This document shows, piece by piece, positions 16,589-26,384 of a stretch of DNA of 64,000 nt. Location of the stretch: the NCBI RefSeq assembly GCF_016745395.1, contig NZ_JAERVJ010000004.1, positions 114,369-178,368 of the forward strand. The letters are read 5' to 3'. Each line of letters opens with the position of its first letter. Within the stretch, counting starts at the first letter, position 1. The DNA comes from Methylocystis sp. Sn-Cys. GTDB taxonomy: Bacteria > Pseudomonadota > Alphaproteobacteria > Rhizobiales > Beijerinckiaceae. Made by a program: the position numbers and the translations under genes. The notes beneath the pieces were generated by a model that saw only the letters and a list, made by a program, of their open reading frames with translations, did no database searches and was not told the DNA's origin.

Positions 16589-16807
16589 TTAATTAGCCAA
16601 CGCGCGCAGTGTGTTGCGATAGCGCCGCATAATCTCGTCCGCCTTCTCGATCTTCTTTGGGTCGTAGGGCGTCAGTAGATAGCCGCCGTCCGCAGCCTCG
16701 ATGGCGTAAAGTGTATCGCCCTTTCCGGCGTTCATCCGCGTAAGCATCTCCTTAGGCAGGACGACGCCGGTAGACGTTCCGATTGGGATGAGTTTCAGCT
16801 TCGTCAT
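16589..16807 (-). CDS. AbrB/MazE-type antitoxin, apparently without a toxin partner
   Basis: This 72-residue protein has the swapped-hairpin AbrB DNA-binding fold pattern KLIPIGTSTGVVLPKEMLTR and a C-terminal helix ending MRRYRNTLRAL. Such proteins normally precede a Doc/Fic or PIN toxin that they neutralise and co-repress. Neither side holds one: a DUF2892 gene lies upstream beyond a repeat and rlmH is convergent. It may be a relic of a module or a solitary regulator. The frame is open upstream into a repeat; the ATG at 16807 begins the conserved domain. Confidence 0.75.
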   Translation of the reverse strand: MTKLKLIPIGTSTGVVLPKEMLTRMNAGKGDTLYAIEAADGGYLLTPYDPKKIEKADEIMRRYRNTLRALAN

Positions 16808-16849
16808 CGCCCTCTCAACAATAAGAATGTTTTGTAATACCGGGTGGCC

Positions 16850-16930
16850 GTCATTGCGAGGAGCAAAGCGACGAAGCAATCCAGAGCCACATTGCTGCCC
16901 TGGATTGCTTCGCTTCGCTCGCAATGACGG
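16850..16930 (+). repeat. family B palindrome
   Basis: Arms tcattgcgaggagcaaagcg and gcttcgctcgcaatgacgg enclose agcaatccagagcc/ccctggattgct. It separates the AbrB-type gene from the DUF2892 gene. Confidence 0.85.
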
Positions 16931-16940
16931 ATGTAGCCCC

Positions 16941-17390
16941 CTACACCCGCTGCTCATGCATCGTCTTCTGCAGCCGGCCCATGGCCTGCTCGACTTTCTG
17001 GAAATCGCCGCGCAAAGCTTTCAGCGCATAGCGTTCCTGGTCGATCTCATGCTGGGTGCGGAAGCCAAGCCGGCGCAGCAGCGGCAGCGGCGGGCACCAG
17101 CCCTGGACGGCGTGCTGGAACAAGAACCCGGCGACGAAGACCGGCAGGGCGAGCCAGCGGCGGTCGGCGACGATCCCCGCCGCGAGACCCGCGAGGGCCA
17201 GCGTCGACGCATTGGCTTCGAGCGCGCGCTCGACGTCCCATTCGCGATCGAGTTCGTCGATGCGCTCGTCGATCTTGCCGGGATGCAGCGCGAAATAGAC
17301 GAGCCGCTCCGTCATCGCTTCGTGGATCATGCGGTTGACGGCTTCGCTCGTGTGGTTCTGGACGCGATCGACGGCTGCGGCTGTGGCCAT
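16941..17390 (-). CDS. DUF2892 (YgaP-like transmembrane) domain protein
   Basis: This 149-residue protein has a charged N-terminal helix region, a hydrophobic hairpin of two membrane segments (about residues 62-90) and a C-terminal amphipathic tail. The pair of segments ending in HAVQGWCPPLPLLRRLGFRT matches the DUF2892 membrane domain, in which xxGxCP precedes the helix end. No rhodanese domain is attached. The biochemical role is unknown. AGAGG precedes the ATG. It is divergent from purA, with about 190 bp between them. Confidence 0.75.
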   Translation of the reverse strand: MATAAAVDRVQNHTSEAVNRMIHEAMTERLVYFALHPGKIDERIDELDREWDVERALEANASTLALAGLAAGIVADRRWLALPVFVAGFLFQHAVQGWCPPLPLLRRLGFRTQHEIDQERYALKALRGDFQKVEQAMGRLQKTMHEQRV

Positions 17391-17577: not shown

Positions 17578-18873
17578 ATGGCGAATGTGGCGGTGGTCGG
17601 CGCCCAATGGGGCGACGAGGGCAAGGGCAAGATCGTCGACTGGCTGTCGCTGGAGGCGGATGTCGTCGTGCGCTTCCAGGGCGGCCACAACGCCGGCCAT
17701 ACGCTCGTCATCGACAGCACGACCTATAAGCTCGCGCTGCTGCCCTCCGGCATCGTCCGGCCGGGCAAGCTCTCCGTCATCGGCAATGGCGTCGTGGTCG
17801 ACCCCCACTTTCTGGTTGGCGAGATCGAGCGGCTGCGGGCGCAGGGCGTCGAGATCGCGCCGGAGAATTTCAAGGTCGCCGAGAACGCGCCGCTCATCCT
17901 GTCGCTGCATCGCGAGCTCGACGCTCACCGCGAGGAGGCTTCGGGCGGCGGCGCCAAGATCGGCACGACCAAGCGCGGCATCGGCCCCGCCTATGAGGAC
18001 AAGGTCGGCCGCCGCGCCATCCGCCTGATGGACCTCGCCGAGCCGGATACGCTCGACGACAAGATCGAGCGTGTTCTCGCCCATCACAATCCGCTGCGCC
18101 GGGGCCTCGGCCTACCGGAAGTCGCGCCGCAGACGCTGCGCGAGGAGCTGCTCTCGGTCGCGCCGAAAATCCTGCCCTTCATGGACGCGGTGTGGGACCT
18201 GCTCGACGAGCAGCGCCGCGCCGGCAAACGCATCCTCTTCGAGGGCGCGCAGGGCGTGCTGCTCGACGTCGACCACGGCACCTATCCTTACGTCACCTCG
18301 TCCAACACCGTCGCGGCTTCGGCGGCGAGCGGCTCGGGCCTGGGACCGGGGGCGATCGGCTATGTGCTCGGCATCGCCAAGGCTTACACGACGCGCGTCG
18401 GCGGCGGGCCGTTCCCGACCGAGCTGACCGACAGCATTGGCGAGCTGATCGGCGACCGCGGCCATGAATTCGGCACCAATACGGGCCGGCGGCGGCGCTG
18501 CGGCTGGTTCGACGCGGTGCTGACGCGCCAGGCGGTGAAGACCTCCGGCATCAACGGCATCGCGCTCACCAAGCTGGATATTCTCGACGGCTTCGACGAG
18601 ATCAAGATCTGCACGCATTACATGCTCGACGGCAAGCGCATCGACCGCCTGCCGGCCTCGCAGTCGGCACAGGCGCGGGTGACGCCCGTCTATGAAAGCT
18701 TCCCCGGCTGGAAGGAGACGACGAGCGGCGCGCGTAGCTGGGCGGAGCTTCCGGCGCAGGCGATCAAATATGTCCGCCGCATCGAGGAGCTGATCGGCGC
18801 GCCCGTGGCGCTGCTCTCGACGAGCCCCGAGCGCGACGACACCATCCTCGTGCATAATCCTTTCCAGGATTGA
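17578..18873 (+). CDS. purA: adenylosuccinate synthetase
   Basis: This 431-residue enzyme joins IMP and aspartate using GTP, the first committed step to AMP. The N-terminal [17 protein letters not shown] is the GTP-binding P-loop signature, followed by GGHNAGHT with the catalytic His. [15 protein letters not shown] and the C-terminal [12 protein letters not shown] are also conserved. Length is typical. The ATG follows GAAGACAAGATC. It stands alone with repeats downstream. Confidence 0.97.
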
Positions 18874-18910
18874 CGACTTCGGCTTGAACGGCTCGCATTG
18901 GCGAGTATCC

Positions 18911-19103
18911 GGCCGACGCTCGCGCCGTTTGGACAGGCAAGAAATCACTGCCGTCATTGCGAGGAGCGCAGCGACGAAGCAATCCAGAGCCGCATCGCCG
19001 CCCTGGATTGCTTCGCTTCGCTCGCAAGGACGGGCTCTGGGCAAAACCGCGCTCTTGCGCCCTGGATTCCCGATCGCTCGCTTCGCGAGCGTCGGGCATG
19101 ACA
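18911..19103 (+). repeat. composite repeat: family B nested in family A
   Basis: An A remnant (cgacgctcgcgccgtttgga) precedes a complete B element (about 18954-19030) and the right A arm ccctggattcccgatcgctc ending gtcgggcatgac. The arrangement parallels 12374-12571. Confidence 0.85.
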
Positions 19104-19122: not shown

Positions 19123-21831
19123 TTAGGCCCGGCGACGGTGGCGCCCGCCGGGCTTTTCACCGGCCGGGCCGGTGCGCGGCAGGAGCTGGGTCAGCGGGGC
19201 AGGGGCGCCATGTTGCGTGAGCAGCGCTTCCATGCCCGCGGCGTCGAGCGGGCGGCTGAACAGAAAGCCCTGCGCTTCCTCGCAGCCTAAACCCTTCAAA
19301 AACTCGGCTTGAGCCGCAGTTTCGATTCCCTCCGCCAGGACTTTCAGATGCAGGCTGTGGCCCAGCGCGACGATCGCGCGGGTAATCGCCGCTTCATTCT
19401 CGCCGCTGGGAAGATCGGAGACGAAGGAGCGGTCGATCTTCAGCTTATTGACGGGCAGGCGTTTCAGATAGGCCAGGGAGGATTGCCCCGTTCCGAAATC
19501 GTCGATCGCCAGCGATACGCCGCAAGAGCGAAGCCCGTCGAGAACTTTCACGTTCTTCTGGGCTTGCCGCATGACATAGGTCTCGGTGATCTCGAGCTCG
19601 AGAAATTTGGACGGCAATCCCGTCTCGGCCAGGACATCCGCCACGAGGCCGACGAGATCCGAGCGCTCGATCTGCACGCCGGAAATATTCACGGCGATGC
19701 GATGCAGCCCCAATCCCTTGCGCATCCATTCCATTGCCTGGCGGCAGGCGGCGCGCAGCGCCCATTCGCCGAGCTGCGTTATCAGGCTCGTCTCTTCGGC
19801 GATGGGAATGAATTTATCGGGCGGAATGATCCCGCGCTCGGGGTGGCGCCAGCGCAAGAGCGCCTCGGAGCCGACGAGTCTTCCGTCGGCCAGATCGACT
19901 TGCGGCTGATAGTTCAGGAACAGCTCGCCCTGTTCCAGCGCCTTGCGCAGCTCGCCTTCCAGGAACTGCCGCTCCTGCGCCTGATCGGTCAGATGCGATC
20001 TGTAGAACAGATATTTGCCGCGCCCTTCCTCCTTGGCTTGATACATCGCGAGATCGGCGTTCTTGATCAGCGTCGCCGAGTCTTCGCCGTCGCCAGGATA
20101 GCAGCTCAGGCCGATCGACGCGCCGACCTCCAGTCGATGGCCTTGCACGATGAAGGGGCTGGATAAAACTGCGATGATCTTGTGGGCGACCTCCTGGCCG
20201 TCCTCCGGACCTTGGGTGTTTTGCAGCAGCACGACGAATTCGTCGCCGCCCAAACGGGCGATCATGGCGCCCTGTCGCAGGTTCTGCATCAACCGCCGCG
20301 CGACGGCGCGCAGAAGCTCGTCGCCGATGGGGTGGCCCAGGCTGTCATTGATATATTTGAACCGATCGAGGTCGAGAAAGAGCAGACACATTTTTCTCCC
20401 GGTCCGATGGGCCAATTTCATGGCCTGCTCGCAGCGTTCGTTGAAGAGCTGGCGGTTGGGAAGATCGGTGAGGGAGTCGTAATAGGCCAAATGGTGGATA
20501 TGCGCCGCCGAACGCTTCTGCTCGGTCAGATCGTAGAAGACGCTGATGTAGTTCTTCACGCTGCCGTCGCCGTCGCGCACCGCCGAAATATTCTGCCAAA
20601 GCGGGATGCTGTCGCCGTCCTTGCGGCGATCCCAGATTTCGCCGTGCCATTCGCCCTCGCTCTTCAGCTTGGCCCAAAGCTGCTTGAAGAAGGCGGCGTT
20701 GTGCCGTTTCGATCTGAAGATATTCGTTCTCTTGCCGATGACGTCGTCGGGGGCGTAACCGAGAATACGGCTGAACGCGGGATTGACCTTGATGATCCGC
20801 GCCTCTGCGTCGGTGATCACCACGCCGTTCAGGCTGGTTTCGAAAACGCTGGCCGCCAGGTTCAACTGCTCGTCGGTCTGCCGCTGGGCGGTGACGTCCT
20901 GCAGGGTTCCGTTCGCCCGTACTGGTCTTCCGTTTTCGTCGCAGAGCGTCACGCCCCGGAGCTGCGCCCATTTGATCCTGCCGCCCGCGAGACGGAGGCG
21001 GCAGCTTGCGTTGAAAAGGCGACGGTCGCGGATCGACGCCTGGAAGGCTTCGTCCACCGCCTGGCGGTCCTCCGGATGGATGATTGCGAGACAATCGTCG
21101 TATCGTCGTGGCAGCGCGCTCGTCTTGCAGATATGGGCCATTTCCTCGGAACGATAGATCACCTCATTCGTGGTCAGATCGACTTCCCAGCGGCCGATTT
21201 GGGCGATGCGCTGCGCTTCCCTTAGCTCCCGCTCGCTGTCGAGCAGCGCGTCATGTTGCTTCTTGATTGCGGTGATGTCGGTGGCGCAGACGACAGCCCC
21301 TTCCTCCTTGCCCTTGGGGTCGTGCTGGAGGGTCGCTTCCAGCCAGTAGAAGCGATACTGGCCGTCTTTCGCGAGGAGCCGATGTTCGGCCGCATAGGAG
21401 CCTGCGCCGCGCACGCGCTCGAACAATGGCGAATGCGCCGGCCAGGGCAGGCGGGGGAGCGATTGCTCGAGCCGGCGCCTTTCCTCCGGCGGCAGCCATT
21501 CGTCGAGGACACGCTCCGCGATCTCTCCCTCCGGCGCGCATAGATCGACGGAGAAGCGACGATTGACCTGGCCGATCCGTCCCTCGGGTCCGAGAACGAT
21601 CAAGAGGGCGCTGGACGTGTCCATCACGCGCTGGGTGAAGTTCGCCAGATTGGCCTGCCGCTGATTGGCCTCCTGCAGGGCCTCCGCCTGCAGCTCCATC
21701 GTGCGCAGCATCTCGTCCGTCTGCGCGGCGTCGAGGCTCATCTGCTCCTGAATGGCGGCGTTGGCGAGGCGGAGCGACTCGACCTCGGCGCGCAGGCGTT
21801 CCACTTCTTGTGTGAGCGCGTCTTCACTCAT
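19123..21831 (-). CDS. PAS-GGDEF-EAL cyclic-di-GMP signalling protein, coupled to hydrogenase genes
   Basis: This 902-residue protein has an N-terminal coiled coil (1-60), three PAS-type domains (about 65-190, 205-320, 325-437), a GGDEF domain with intact RLGGDEF (528-532), and an EAL domain with SEALLRW (656-658 EAL), ITETYV and IDDFGTGQSS. Both diguanylate cyclase and phosphodiesterase motifs are complete. The inhibitory I-site is degenerate (RQGA instead of RxxD). No membrane segments are visible. The ATG overlaps the hydrogenase protease gene by eight bases, so it belongs to the hydrogenase operon. HydDB group 2c hydrogenases are described as diguanylate-cyclase-linked, which fits. Confidence 0.9.
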   Translation of the reverse strand: MSEDALTQEVERLRAEVESLRLANAAIQEQMSLDAAQTDEMLRTMELQAEALQEANQRQANLANFTQRVMDTSSALLIVLGPEGRIGQVNRRFSVDLCAPEGEIAERVLDEWLPPEERRRLEQSLPRLPWPAHSPLFERVRGAGSYAAEHRLLAKDGQYRFYWLEATLQHDPKGKEEGAVVCATDITAIKKQHDALLDSERELREAQRIAQIGRWEVDLTTNEVIYRSEEMAHICKTSALPRRYDDCLAIIHPEDRQAVDEAFQASIRDRRLFNASCRLRLAGGRIKWAQLRGVTLCDENGRPVRANGTLQDVTAQRQTDEQLNLAASVFETSLNGVVITDAEARIIKVNPAFSRILGYAPDDVIGKRTNIFRSKRHNAAFFKQLWAKLKSEGEWHGEIWDRRKDGDSIPLWQNISAVRDGDGSVKNYISVFYDLTEQKRSAAHIHHLAYYDSLTDLPNRQLFNERCEQAMKLAHRTGRKMCLLFLDLDRFKYINDSLGHPIGDELLRAVARRLMQNLRQGAMIARLGGDEFVVLLQNTQGPEDGQEVAHKIIAVLSSPFIVQGHRLEVGASIGLSCYPGDGEDSATLIKNADLAMYQAKEEGRGKYLFYRSHLTDQAQERQFLEGELRKALEQGELFLNYQPQVDLADGRLVGSEALLRWRHPERGIIPPDKFIPIAEETSLITQLGEWALRAACRQAMEWMRKGLGLHRIAVNISGVQIERSDLVGLVADVLAETGLPSKFLELEITETYVMRQAQKNVKVLDGLRSCGVSLAIDDFGTGQSSLAYLKRLPVNKLKIDRSFVSDLPSGENEAAITRAIVALGHSLHLKVLAEGIETAAQAEFLKGLGCEEAQGFLFSRPLDAAGMEALLTQHGAPAPLTQLLPRTGPAGEKPGGRHRRRA

Positions 21832-22303
21832 GGCGGTCATTCTCGAAATAGGCGCCGAGCAGCATGGCGACCTCGTCCACGGCGCGCGCGACCGGCTCTG
21901 AAAGCCCAATGTGAAATGGCGTAATAGTCTCGACTTCCGCCCCGATGATCTTAATGGCCGGGGAGGTTTCGGGAAATGCGGCGAGCGCGCGCAGGACATA
22001 GCCGAGGCCGAGCCCGTGGGCTGCGGGCGTCGTTTCTTCCATGATCATGGCGAGGGAGGGCCGATGCACGCGGCCGGGCTTTCCTGCGGGCGCCAGGGCG
22101 TCGACGATGACGACTTCGTCGCAGTCCTCGAAGAGCGCCAGCGCCGCCGGGCCGGGCGCGCCAGCTTCCGTCAGGCGTAGATCGGCCGGGCGCTCGCGCG
22201 CCGCCAGCCGTTCATAGACCGCCGGGCCGAAGCCGTCGTCGCCATGCAGCGGATTGCCGAAGCAGACGATATGGCGCCGGATGATGGAAGGACTCTGGTT
22301 CAT
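21824..22303 (-). CDS. [NiFe]-hydrogenase maturation endopeptidase (HupD/HyaD family)
   Basis: This 159-residue protein starts at the ATG overlapping the large-subunit stop (ATGA). The segment CFGNPLHGDDGFG matches the GNxxxxDDGxG nickel-recognition motif of hydrogenase proteases, and VVIVDALAP plus the C-terminal helical part fit the fold. It should remove the C-terminal peptide of the large subunit after nickel insertion. Its presence agrees with the 12-residue extension beyond the last nickel-site motif there. It overlaps the downstream PAS-GGDEF-EAL gene by eight bases. Confidence 0.88.
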   Translation of the reverse strand: MNQSPSIIRRHIVCFGNPLHGDDGFGPAVYERLAARERPADLRLTEAGAPGPAALALFEDCDEVVIVDALAPAGKPGRVHRPSLAMIMEETTPAAHGLGLGYVLRALAAFPETSPAIKIIGAEVETITPFHIGLSEPVARAVDEVAMLLGAYFENDRHE

Positions 22304-23817
22304 GCGTTGAAATGAACCTTCCTCCCGGTGTCCAGCATATGGACCGTGCAAACAAGGCAGGGATCGTGGGAGCGGATGATGTGGCCGATCTCGACCGGAT
22401 CGTCCGGGTCGCGCACCTCGACGCCGACCAGGCTCTGCTCCCAATGGCCGGGCTGGCCGGCGCTGTCGCGCGGCGAGGCGTTCCAGGCGGTGGGCGTGAC
22501 GATCTGATATTTTTCGATGACGCCGTCTTTGATCTTGATCCAGTGACCGAGCGCGCCGCGCGCCGCCATGATCAGGCCGTAGCCGTCGCCATCGGATTCA
22601 TTGGCGGGCGGGATGAAATGCTCTCCCGCGAGATCGGCGGCGAGTTGATCGAGCATGCGCCGTGCATGCAGGAATTCATGGGCGATGCGCCGCGCCCGCG
22701 CGAATTGCCGCAGCCAGGCGCCGCCGCCCTCCAATGCGTTGAGCGAGGCGATCAAAGGATCGCCGCCGATCAGCAATTCCGCGAGCGGGCCGGTCTGGAC
22801 GACCTTTTCGCCATAGCGCGGCGCCTTGGACCATGTGTAGCGATCGCCGCCCGGCTCGTAATTGGGGATGGTTTCGCCGTTCCACGGGTGGCGGCCGCCC
22901 TCATAGTGGCGGAACCAGGAATGGCGCACATGCTCATTGATCTGCGTCTGATCGAGCGGCGCGATCGTCCCCGTTTCGCCGTCGTAAAAGCCCGACGCCA
23001 GCAGAGTCGCATCGGCGTCGGTCGTCGAAGGATCGCGCCACGCGCCGTAGCTCAGCATATGTTTGGCGCCCGCCGCGGAGCGATGAAGCCCCAGAGCGCG
23101 CACGCAACGGCTGAGCATGCCAAGCGCGCTCGCCGCATGGGCGGGCGCGTCGAGCCAGGCGAAATAGTCTTCCGCTTTGTCGAGCGCCAGCCAACGCTCG
23201 AGCGGCGCGCCGACGATGCGCTGCTCATACCAGCGTTGCGCGTCGTCCAGCACGGCGCGGCAGGCGGAAATCCGGCGCAGATCGGCAGGAAGCGTCACGC
23301 CGCCGGGGGCCATATAGGAGGAGTGCGGCCACTGTCCGCCAAAATGCGCCACGATCTGCACGACCTTCCGCGTCACCGCGAGGGTTTCGAGATAGATCGT
23401 TCCGCGAAACGGCTCGAAGGCGGCCATGATCTCGTCGAACCAGGGTTCGGCGGCGTAGCGCGGATTGCAGAAATCCGGCGTGAAGAACAGGAAGGTCTGG
23501 CGCAGATCGTTCTGAATGCCTTCCGCCATCAGGCAGAGATTGCGGATGCGCGTGGCGTTGGGCGGCGGGACCGCGCCCCAGGCGCGTTCCAAAGCGAGCG
23601 CCGACGAATAAAGATGCGCGGTTCCGCAAATGCCGCAGACGCGCGGCGTGATCACAAGGGCGTCGCGCGGCGCCCGGCCGATGAGAATCTGCTCGAAACC
23701 GCGATACATCGTGCCGATGGTGCGGGCTTCCGCCACCACGCCGTCGTCCAGCGTCACGGCGAGCTCGAGATCGCCCTCGACGCGGTTGAGGCTGACATTG
23801 AGCTCGACGCGCGCCAT
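22300..23817 (-). CDS. [NiFe]-hydrogenase large subunit
   Basis: The 505-residue catalytic subunit carries both nickel-ligand motifs: RVCGICGTAH near residue 58 and DPCLVCTVH at the C-terminus. The protein starts with VELNVSLNRVEGDLEL, the typical RVEG entry. After the last His twelve residues remain (MLDTGRKVHFNA), a probable cleavable peptide; H2-sensor large subunits such as HupV/HoxC usually end at this His. The gene follows the small subunit by one base and overlaps the protease gene. Group assignment to the cytosolic, uptake-like group 2 is inference from the small subunit. Confidence 0.92.
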   Translation of the reverse strand: MARVELNVSLNRVEGDLELAVTLDDGVVAEARTIGTMYRGFEQILIGRAPRDALVITPRVCGICGTAHLYSSALALERAWGAVPPPNATRIRNLCLMAEGIQNDLRQTFLFFTPDFCNPRYAAEPWFDEIMAAFEPFRGTIYLETLAVTRKVVQIVAHFGGQWPHSSYMAPGGVTLPADLRRISACRAVLDDAQRWYEQRIVGAPLERWLALDKAEDYFAWLDAPAHAASALGMLSRCVRALGLHRSAAGAKHMLSYGAWRDPSTTDADATLLASGFYDGETGTIAPLDQTQINEHVRHSWFRHYEGGRHPWNGETIPNYEPGGDRYTWSKAPRYGEKVVQTGPLAELLIGGDPLIASLNALEGGGAWLRQFARARRIAHEFLHARRMLDQLAADLAGEHFIPPANESDGDGYGLIMAARGALGHWIKIKDGVIEKYQIVTPTAWNASPRDSAGQPGHWEQSLVGVEVRDPDDPVEIGHIIRSHDPCLVCTVHMLDTGRKVHFNA

Positions 23818-23818
23818 G

Positions 23819-24760
23819 TCAAACGTCCATCTTCTTGTTTCGGACGCGCGCGGGCGCGGCGGCGCGGGCGAGATTCTTATAGGCCATGTAGCGGGCGCGC
23901 TCGACGCCGACCGGCAGGCGCAGCGGAATGTCGCCGATCTTCGCCGTTGCGAAGAGGTCCGTTTCGCGCGGGAAATTGGGCGCCGTGCAGCCGAAGCAGG
24001 GGACGCCCGCGCGCGTCTTACTGTTGACGCCGTTCCAAAGATCGCTGTTGCAGACCGCCTGGGTCAGCGGGCCCTGGCAGCCCAGATTATAGAACAGGCA
24101 GGCGCGACCCCCGAGCTCCAAATCCTCGACGTCATATTCGTGGTATTCGTTCCGCGTGCAGCCTTGGTGCGCCAAAGTGCTGAAGAAAGCGGCAGGCCGG
24201 TTCAGCGGATCGAGGGCGAGCGGCAGGTCCTGGGCGATCGCCTCCAGCGTCTGGGTCATGGCGTGGGGATGGGCCGGGCAGCCGGCGATATTGATGACCG
24301 GCAGGCCCGAACCGGCGCGCCAGTCCGCCGGCAAAAGGCCGCCCGGCGTCTCCCGGTCGAATTGCAGGCCGATGCAATCGGCGGGGTTGGGGCTCGCCGC
24401 GTGAACGCCGCCGAAACTGGCGCACGTGCCCATGGCGACGACGATATTTGCGCGCCGGGCGAGCGCGCGCGTGATCTCCATACGCGCCCGGCCCCGGTAG
24501 CTGTCGTAAAGGCCGGTGCCGCGCGGCGCGGTGACGACGCTGCCCTCGACGCAGAGGATGTCGAGCTTTTGGGCGCCCGACGCGATGTTTTCGATCAGCG
24601 CGTCAAAACGCTTCATCGGCGCATGCGAGAGGGAGGGGTGCCAGAGCAGCTCGATCCCGCAGGAGGCGAATAATTGCTCGAAGCTCGGCGCTTCAGCGCT
24701 CAGAATTGCAAGCGAGTCGCCGCCGCAGGCCCCAGTCTGCAACCAGAACAAGGTTTTCAC
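23819..24760 (-). CDS. [NiFe]-hydrogenase small subunit without Tat signal
   Basis: The 313-residue iron-sulfur subunit starts directly at LFWLQTGACGGDS with no twin-arginine leader or C-terminal anchor, so the enzyme should be cytosolic. Conserved cluster segments include GTCASFGG, NIAGCPAHP, GCTRNEYHEY and VPCFGC. The first CxxC is CGGD: the second proximal-cluster cysteine is an aspartate (residue 15). Asp ligation of the proximal cluster is known from actinobacterial-type hydrogenase. The start is GTG with GGAGAG eight bases upstream. It is the first gene of the four-gene operon, and no hyp genes are nearby. Confidence 0.9.
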   Translation of the reverse strand: MKTLFWLQTGACGGDSLAILSAEAPSFEQLFASCGIELLWHPSLSHAPMKRFDALIENIASGAQKLDILCVEGSVVTAPRGTGLYDSYRGRARMEITRALARRANIVVAMGTCASFGGVHAASPNPADCIGLQFDRETPGGLLPADWRAGSGLPVINIAGCPAHPHAMTQTLEAIAQDLPLALDPLNRPAAFFSTLAHQGCTRNEYHEYDVEDLELGGRACLFYNLGCQGPLTQAVCNSDLWNGVNSKTRAGVPCFGCTAPNFPRETDLFATAKIGDIPLRLPVGVERARYMAYKNLARAAAPARVRNKKMDV

Positions 24761-24909: not shown

Positions 24910-25638
24910 TCACGCGATCCCGTCAAAAAGCGCGGCGGCCTCGCCGAGATCGAATTCGGCGATGAGCGCGGGAGACAAAGGGTCTTCGCCGCCGAGCCAG
25001 GACTCGATCGCCGCGGGAGCCCGCAAGGCGATCTCCAGCGCTTTGGTGATCTCGTATAGTCCCCAGGCGAGGCCCGACTGGCGCATGGCGTTCATCATGG
25101 CGTTTTGCACGAGACTGCGAACGACCAGATGCGGCGTCGATACGGTCGCCTCGTCTCCCTCGCCCTCGGCCGCCGAAATGCAGGCGAGCTTATCCAACGC
25201 CGCATGACCTCGGCACGCAAGCGGGCGGAGCCGATAGGCGAGGCAGAGGTCTTTCTCGATCAGCGGGCAATAGTGCTTGGCCGCCAAGCGCGACGCTTCA
25301 TCCAGGCTTCCAACCGTATTCGCCGCCTCGGCGATGCGGCGCGGAAGGTCGATCCCCCGCGCCTCGAACGCCGGGGCGTTGACGTCCACGAAACGGGCCA
25401 GCAGGAAAACCTCGGGCGCCGTCGCCACGACGCGAAGACGGCAGCACGCCGCGCATTCGCCATGACAGGCGATCGCCGGCGCGCCTTCGGCCTGGATGAC
25501 GACATTTTTCTCGAAAAGGTCGAAAGCCTGCGCGCAAAGGGCGCCGACGAGATCAGCCTGGTTGCGTCGCGCGGCGACCGTATCGCCGAACGCCCGGCTT
25601 GTCGCCCGGAAGAAGGAAGCGGGCCCGTCCTTGCGCAT
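24910..25638 (-). CDS. YkgJ-family cysteine-cluster protein
   Basis: This 242-residue protein contains the YkgJ-type cysteine pattern: CHGECAACCRL in the first third, HYCPLIEKDLCLAY in the middle, and RLRPLACRGH after it. These Cys residues are proposed to hold a metal or Fe-S cluster in the family, whose function is not established. It lies about 150 bp upstream of the hydrogenase small subunit on the same strand. A role in redox or metal handling for that operon is conceivable but unproved. No signal peptide or membrane segment is visible. Confidence 0.75.
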   Translation of the reverse strand: MRKDGPASFFRATSRAFGDTVAARRNQADLVGALCAQAFDLFEKNVVIQAEGAPAIACHGECAACCRLRVVATAPEVFLLARFVDVNAPAFEARGIDLPRRIAEAANTVGSLDEASRLAAKHYCPLIEKDLCLAYRLRPLACRGHAALDKLACISAAEGEGDEATVSTPHLVVRSLVQNAMMNAMRQSGLAWGLYEITKALEIALRAPAAIESWLGGEDPLSPALIAEFDLGEAAALFDGIA

Positions 25639-25887: not shown

Positions 25888-26310
25888 TCAATGCGCTTTG
25901 TCGTGCGCGTTGTCGGGATCGTTACGCATCCAATCGGCGAGCTTGGCGAGCGCCTGCGCGATCGATCCTCGCGCCGCCGGATCGGTTATGCACGCGTCCA
26001 GCGCCGCGTCCATGCAGATGAGCCAGGCGTCGCGCTCCGCGGGGCCGATGTGGAAACGCGCGTGACGCATTCTGAGCCGCGGATGGCCGCGTTTCGCCGA
26101 ATAATTCGCGGGGCCGCCCAGCCATTCGGTCAGATAGAGCTTCAGGATCGCCTTGGTCGGACCGAGGTCTGTCGTATGCATGGCGCGTATCCCCCGCGCC
26201 GCCTCCATTGTGTCCATGTTGCGGTAGAACGCTTCCACCAATTGGTCGACAGTGGAGGCGCCGCCGATATGGTCGTACAAAGTCGCATTCCGAGCGTTAT
26301 TCGTCGTCAT
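25888..26310 (-). CDS. group II truncated haemoglobin
   Basis: This 140-residue protein has the 2-over-2 globin pattern: LYDHIGGASTVDQLVEAFY at the start, the E-helix region LYLTEWLGGPANYSAKRGHPRLRMRH (split here by reading, with Tyr and Gly-Gly-Pro), and the proximal RHARFHIGPAERDAWL histidine. Group II proteins bind O2 or NO and are linked to oxidative or nitrosative stress. The frame is open upstream, but the ATG at 26310 gives the natural start. It is on the same strand as the YkgJ-type and hydrogenase genes. Confidence 0.88.
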   Translation of the reverse strand: MTTNNARNATLYDHIGGASTVDQLVEAFYRNMDTMEAARGIRAMHTTDLGPTKAILKLYLTEWLGGPANYSAKRGHPRLRMRHARFHIGPAERDAWLICMDAALDACITDPAARGSIAQALAKLADWMRNDPDNAHDKAH

Positions 26311-26384
26311 CTCAGACTTCCAGCAACATGGGCGCCAGGGCGAGGCCCTCATAGCATCTGCGGTTGAAGAGCGCGCATCGGGTT

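Follow-up and report, generated by a model that had tools for sequence, protein, structure and literature searches.

Group 2c of the [NiFe]-hydrogenases is listed in the HydDB table as 'diguanylate cyclase-linked (putative)', with an undetermined role which is possibly H2 sensing through cyclic-di-GMP (PMC5037454). Phosphodiesterases, too, have been named alongside these enzymes (PMC4853749). The regulatory hydrogenase (RH) of group 2b is a known H2 sensor, bound tightly to its kinase (PMC5665086). Huc, of group 2a, oxidises H2 and needs HucE, a protein with a Rieske motif, deletion of which has the same effect as deletion of the hydrogenase (PMC6883350); the descriptions of Huc consulted here mention no signalling partner. 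Here, we analyse a stretch of 64,000 nucleotides from Methylocystis sp. Sn-Cys (the window, always taken at its full length), in which four minus-strand genes, at 19123-24760, encode a hydrogenase of group 2c, its maturation protease and a transducer carrying PAS, GGDEF and EAL domains. The operon is real, well conserved and an ordinary member of the published putative family. Because HydDB already describes group 2c in these terms, the link between H2 and cyclic-di-GMP put forward in an initial annotation of the window is the published suggestion: it is not new, being already in print as putative. What appears new, within the literature searched, is that the outputs of these systems are exchangeable, that their input module is shared and probably akin to HupT, and that some of them are fused to Rieske domains; no mention of a 2c input module, of a Rieske fusion or of an exchange of outputs was found in the excerpts of that literature. 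Judging from the sequences, we think it likely that the operon encodes an H2 sensor whose state would set the turnover of cyclic-di-GMP.

The similarity to the HydDB description is close: same clade, cytosolic type, an almost identical L2 motif and an adjoining cyclic-di-GMP enzyme. All four genes lie on the minus strand. The small subunit (23819-24760; 313 residues, GTG start) begins directly ahead of its first cluster motif, which makes the enzyme a cytosolic-type hydrogenase, as initially annotated; its proximal-cluster motif is CGGD (Cys12, Asp15). The gene of the large subunit (22300-23817; 505 residues) begins one base past the stop of the small subunit. It is overlapped by 4 bases by the protease gene (21824-22303; 159 residues, HycI family), which is itself overlapped by 8 bases by the transducer gene (19123-21831; 902 residues). 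The mechanical open reading frame (ORF) of the transducer extends to 21999 (958 residues); the shorter form agrees with two relatives, L034 and L036 (L numbers denote loci, and G numbers genomes, collected for comparison), which have the identical 8-base overlap at that junction. Like the window, several relatives show overlaps of 4 or 8 bases, L034, L036 and L039 among them. Coordinates and Pfam matches (Oxidored_q6 and NiFe_hyd_SSU_C; NiFeSe_Hases, 1.3e-86; HycI, 5e-14; EAL, 3.9e-75; GGDEF, 3e-50; PAS) thus confirm the four contiguous genes of the initial annotation, including the overlap between protease and transducer, and Pfam and NCBIfam concur on their identities.

Transducers of group 2c hydrogenases

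We collected 58 non-duplicate 2c loci, many of them closely related (Methylomonadaceae account for 26). Three contigs stop ahead of the partner gene, leaving 55 assessable loci, window included. A transducer gene lies downstream of the hydrogenase genes in 54 of them, with 35 outputs of the GGDEF-EAL type, 17 histidine kinases and two GGDEF domains alone, while one locus (L052) is without partner; a partner of the cyclic-di-GMP type, GGDEF-EAL or GGDEF, is therefore present at 37 of the 55. The protease was found at 54 of the assessable loci and was not detected in L154. This departs from the published picture of group 2c, in that 17 of 54 relatives have a histidine kinase instead. It also limits an early claim, that no kinase partner such as that of HupUV/HoxBC is present: true of the window locus, it fails for the family as a whole, where kinases do occur and the input module is probably kin to HupT. 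Genome G483 carries two 2c operons with different outputs, GGDEF in L149 and a histidine kinase in L154.

The first 200 residues of the partners constitute one homologous module, in GGDEF-EAL proteins and kinases alike, which is clear in 44 of the 54. In the window it is made of a long helix followed by PAS1 (residues 1-190; 21262-21831, minus strand) and recurs in partners at other 2c loci, whether their output is GGDEF-EAL or a kinase. The tree of the module broadly tracks that of the hydrogenase, with the kinases of Vibrionaceae and SAR324 nested among GGDEF-EAL partners, and the output changes within 2c at least three times on either tree (once the 2b kinases are counted too, the number becomes four for the hydrogenase tree and stays at three for that of the module). 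Given an input that follows the hydrogenase and outputs that vary, the simplest view is of a module reading the hydrogenase, with the remainder of the protein exchangeable. A mostly constant input with exchanged outputs argues, in turn, that 2c hydrogenases are sensors.

The locus resembles the 2b systems, HupUV/HoxBC with HupT/HoxJ, in that a hydrogenase of two subunits, cytosolic in type, has a transducer dedicated to it, and the resemblance may extend to the module. At 2b loci, the module profile matched a kinase in 48 of 55 cases (33-49 bits), while those PAS proteins of the same loci that are not partners of a hydrogenase reached at most 22 bits. In 149 genomes of the family to which the window belongs, where only part of the candidates were scored (21 of 33 in the window's own genome, for example), the three best matches were 2c partners (255-272 bits). 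The next 14 (40-60 bits) fell in exactly the 14 genomes that have a 2b hydrogenase, and all the rest stayed at or below 37.5 bits. Twelve of these 14 matches lie on the same contig as the 2b hydrogenase, within 21 kb of it. Twelve of the 14 proteins were retrieved; all twelve are histidine kinases. In their kinase cores they match, at 193-208 bits, the partner encoded at the 2c locus of Grimontia celer (L045). The reverse search, with a HupT profile, gave 60 matches at 2b loci and then 2c partners at ranks 61-79, unbroken. Direct comparison of the two profiles scored 101, against 88 for a generic PAS domain of the same proteins; because this margin is small, we do not rest the kinship on that comparison alone. 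The module is probably a distant relative of the N-terminus of HupT-type kinases, reached through intermediates. In the window's own genome no 2b match appeared at E<=1e-60, and the partner itself was the only match of the module at E<=1e-5 among the 21 of 33 candidates that were scored.

In some lineages, a further element precedes the module. The Methylobacter-type partners, that of Neptuniibacter and that of L148 carry an N-terminal Rieske domain, while in SAR324 L040 the Rieske protein has a gene of its own, placed between those of the protease and the kinase; the ligands, CxH...CxxH, are present in 21 of 21 aligned rows, one of them a duplicate. Considered together with the dependence of Huc on HucE, such a fused or adjoining domain suggests that a 2c hydrogenase can deliver electrons to its partner. 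This is a likeness to group 2a at some 2c loci. In the window the partner is without the motif, so that the signal in its branch would have to pass without it. When the flanks of 2a loci, about 1.5 kb, were searched for Rieske genes, they yielded one unrelated opposite-strand ORF with CxH...CxxH, a result that says little because the flanks are short and because HucE is described with CxH...CxxC (PMC6883350). At L190:6581-9195, numbered in the orientation of the hydrogenase, a partner of the Methylobacter type is split in two frames, Rieske-PAS and GGDEF-EAL.

Hydrogenase class and transducer active sites

A tree of 66 large subunits has three supported clades: 2b (15 rows, 100/100), 2a (7 rows, 100/100) and a third one (44 rows, 99/94), which contains the Methylobacter enzymes, with that of the window nested inside; L055 belongs to it as well, on a very long branch. 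We call this clade 2c on the basis of tree position and of kinship with the Methylobacter hydrogenases given that name in PMC4853749 and PMC12810054. The window enzyme is thus inside group 2, a position outside of which the initial annotation had named beforehand as an outcome that would contradict it; its quotation of HydDB, too, agrees with the table in PMC5037454. The L1 motif of the window reads RVCGICGTAH, and its L2 motif, SHDPCLVCTVH, differs from the 2c motif SFDxCLVCTVH by one residue, His for Phe, a difference shared with the Thiomargarita enzyme accepted as 2c in PMC4853749. The nearest relative of the large subunit, with 87% identity, comes from a Methylocystis metagenome-assembled genome (MAG; L033). 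For both subunits, the closest solved structures are those of the group 2a enzyme Huc (7utd, 7uus, 7uur), with the group 1h structure 5aa5 less similar.

The small subunit carries a signature of its own. The second residue of its CxxC motif is, we assume, a ligand of the proximal cluster in standard hydrogenases. In the 2c small subunits (52 of the 58 loci examined) this position is occupied by Asp in 43 and by Glu in 9. All 16 usable 2b rows have Cys there; two more (L090 and L026), likewise with Cys, resemble a group 1 subunit and were left out. In 2a, Huc included, the residue is Asn (7 of 7 rows); L059, which stands outside 2a, 2b and 2c, has Cys. An aspartate coordinates the proximal cluster in a hydrogenase of group 1h, of the actinobacterial type (PMC7174314), to which the carboxylate is a likeness, whereas group and function are different and similarity is lower. 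As a predicted ligand, this Asp/Glu carboxylate seems to be a new signature within the literature searched: the excerpts that describe 2c in PMC5037454 and PMC4853749 mention neither the Asp/Glu position nor Rieske fusions nor a shared module.

Other markers separate 2c from the 2b sensors. A C-terminal extension of 11-16 residues (12 in the window) is present in 51 of 51 2c large subunits with a visible end and in none of 18 2b rows. The last residue of L1 is His in 38 of 52 2c rows, window included, and Gln in the other 14 as well as in 18 of 18 2b rows; the 14 comprise the Methylobacter group except L160, plus L052. Gln in L1 together with the lack of an extension characterizes 55 of 55 and 14 of 14 2b loci, in two separate sets, in line with the Gln typical of RH sensors (PMC5665086) and with a HoxC that has no extension (PMC10073562). 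The window enzyme is therefore without both marks of a 2b sensor. At two positions of the large subunit that we take to be gas-channel residues of RH it has Ile and Phe, as 2b does. In short, 2c differs from 2b as a separate clade, with Asp/Glu for the second proximal Cys, an extension, a protease and mostly His in L1, and in the window the output is GGDEF-EAL.

An AlphaFold2 model of the 902-residue transducer (mean predicted local distance difference test score 82, predicted template modelling score 0.44) folds residues 3-72 as a helix, followed by three PAS folds at about 75-186, 212-313 and 335-435, then by the GGDEF (about residues 445-608; 20008-20499) and EAL (about 620-870; 19222-19974) domains, both on the minus strand. 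The GGDEF residues and, in EAL, E656, N715, E747, D777, D778, K798, E834 and Q854, presumably catalytic, are invariant in 15 aligned partners of the 35 with GGDEF-EAL. Alignment and model thereby uphold the earlier statement that both motifs are intact and that there are three PAS domains. The catalytic residues being in place, activity of both domains is predicted. The RxxD feedback motif next to the intact RLGGDEF is broken (RQGA); close relatives retain it, L113, L034, L036, L155 and L156 among them. In a check of 33 partners, 12 fell outside the first GGDEF pattern, ten of them reading GGDEF and two GGEEF; the partner of L159 reads SGDEF. The output half, PAS3-GGDEF-EAL, has as its best curated match the phosphodiesterase DibA, at 721 bits, below the cut-off of 980, and it also matches the DosP model below its cut-off. 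It resembles these two in domain order, while its scores fall short and its N-terminal input is different. Loss of the feedback motif and a phosphodiesterase as nearest curated model, with EAL and GGDEF both intact, incline us weakly towards net hydrolysis of cyclic-di-GMP, which we hold to be slightly likelier than net synthesis. A fold search with PAS1 returned generic PAS matches, including the cofactor binders DosP and NifL; because likeness of PAS folds is unspecific and no cofactor-binding residue was identified, a cofactor in PAS1 was rejected.

Nine of the 26 Methylomonadaceae genomes that carry 2c (among 151) have enzymes 72-75% identical to that of the window. Four of the nine are in the tree, where they group with the window clade and not with Methylobacter, suggesting transfer between classes of methanotrophs.

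Sensor or uptake enzyme

As a sensor, the cytosolic hydrogenase would bind or slowly oxidise H2, and its redox or conformational state would go from the small subunit to the helix-PAS1 module of a transducer held in complex with it. This state would then set the balance of GGDEF against EAL, hence the level of cyclic-di-GMP. Complex formation, dependence on H2, electron transfer, the direction of the response and its cellular target, put down as attachment or motility in the initial annotation, are inferred. Eight of 20 2c genomes, among them all 7 Vibrionaceae of the set, gave no second PF00374 match at E<=1e-20, a threshold that group 4 enzymes may escape, in a count that includes some MAGs; the 2c enzyme of these eight would thus not merely regulate another such hydrogenase. 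HypC, HypD, a HypE-like protein, HupE/UreJ and HypF adjoin the 2c genes in the Vibrio locus L050.

Several observations weigh against the sensor. Its large subunit keeps the extension, the protease and, in the window, the His of L1, unlike 2b sensors, and its nearest solved relative, Huc, is an H2-oxidising enzyme. Group 2c might then be a working uptake hydrogenase like Huc, and the GGDEF-EAL protein, using the flow of electrons or just being co-encoded, would adjust its expression, or attachment, in the presence of H2; no dedicated sensor would be involved. Proteolytic maturation, with an extension in all 51 2c rows as opposed to none of the 18 from 2b, the prevalence of His in L1 and the ranking of Huc for both subunits speak for it. 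Against it, the window has neither a further electron-acceptor or cytochrome gene in the operon (ORF list and Pfam) nor, by the single motif pattern used, a Rieske motif on the partner or elsewhere. The latter absence counts against the sensor too, and sets the window apart from Huc, as does the Asn of 2a at the proximal position. The constant neighbour, furthermore, is a signalling protein with a mostly constant input and a varied output, and 14 of the 52 2c rows have the Gln of RH sensors in place of His. We regard an uptake role as rather unlikely.

It has also to be considered that O2, redox state or nitric oxide is what the partner detects, with its own PAS domains, the hydrogenase being the reductase that resets a PAS or Rieske cofactor and no detector of H2. 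The likeness of PAS1 to many PAS domains, some of which bind cofactors, the Rieske domains of some lineages and the DosP and DibA matches under their cut-offs would fit, yet the PAS likeness is unspecific, lacks an identified cofactor-binding residue, and a reductase fed by H2 would report H2 all the same; this seems improbable to us. That the neighbourhood is accidental or peculiar to one strain is barely conceivable: two genes upstream of the operon, described below, are indeed unique to the window, so that neighbours do vary, while a transducer directly downstream in 54 of 55 assessable loci contradicts it.

The shared module has its own difficulties. It is weak in 6 of 54 partners (L149-L154) and undetected in 4 (L055, L167, L179 and L180), and L052 has no partner. 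The trees conflict, with support on both sides, over SAR324 L040: that of the hydrogenase puts it with Vibrionaceae (98/96), that of the module with GGDEF-EAL modules (96/85). With the HupT profile, the module of the window scores 11 bits, inside the background. In 197 Vibrionaceae genomes, where 2b hydrogenases were not searched for, the module profile scores PAS-GGDEF proteins away from 2c loci at up to 44.5 bits, which falls in the range of HupT, 40-60 bits. The three of them that were retrieved carry GGDEF or GGDEF-EAL domains, and no hydrogenase was matched within 10 kb. Every match of at least 90 bits in that search sits at a 2c locus, including L235 of G1036, which is outside the 58-locus count.

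With an H2 sensor retained as the likely function, a bolder proposal can be made, only tentatively: group 2c would be a plug-in H2 input, leading from a carboxylate-ligated proximal cluster, in some lineages by way of a fused Rieske domain, to a helix-PAS module whose output has repeatedly been exchanged between histidine kinase, GGDEF and GGDEF-EAL. A metalloenzyme would then be wired, by electron transfer, directly into a second-messenger enzyme. If the sensor is real, H2 would influence the life style of bacteria, methane oxidisers and phototrophs, by way of cyclic-di-GMP, and other signalling enzymes could be fitted with the module to respond to H2. The idea is now narrowed to one fragment of the partner, residues 1-190, and to one residue of the small subunit, Asp15, making a long-suspected route of H2 sensing directly testable.

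Flanking genes and side observations

Upstream of the operon, on the same strand, the window encodes a YkgJ-like CxxCxxCC protein (24910-25638, minus strand) and a truncated haemoglobin (25888-26352, minus strand). Among 12,705 ORFs of 137 loci, with upstream flanks of under 1 to 10 kb, the pair was found in the window only; unmatched at other loci within the fetched flanks, both were rejected as parts of the system. Upstream of the small subunit, at 24 loci, no sigma-54 site stood clearly above shuffled sequences, and scans for sigma-70 promoters and terminators gave counts at chance level.

In Vibrionaceae, the hydrogenase subunit genes of L056/L181, L182 and L235 are in broken frames, by either decay or sequencing error; the kinase partner is open in L182 and L235. 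A RuBisCO large subunit is, by impression, unexpected in this family. In Enterovibrio, a gene for it lies shortly downstream of the 2c operon (L044:16793-18250, minus strand, Pfam match), and L042:16805-18223 (minus strand) falls in the same cluster. Finally, reading frames of the window, such as 16589-16957 and 18764-19099, repeat the string LRAKRSNPG, the recurrence of which points to a dispersed DNA repeat.

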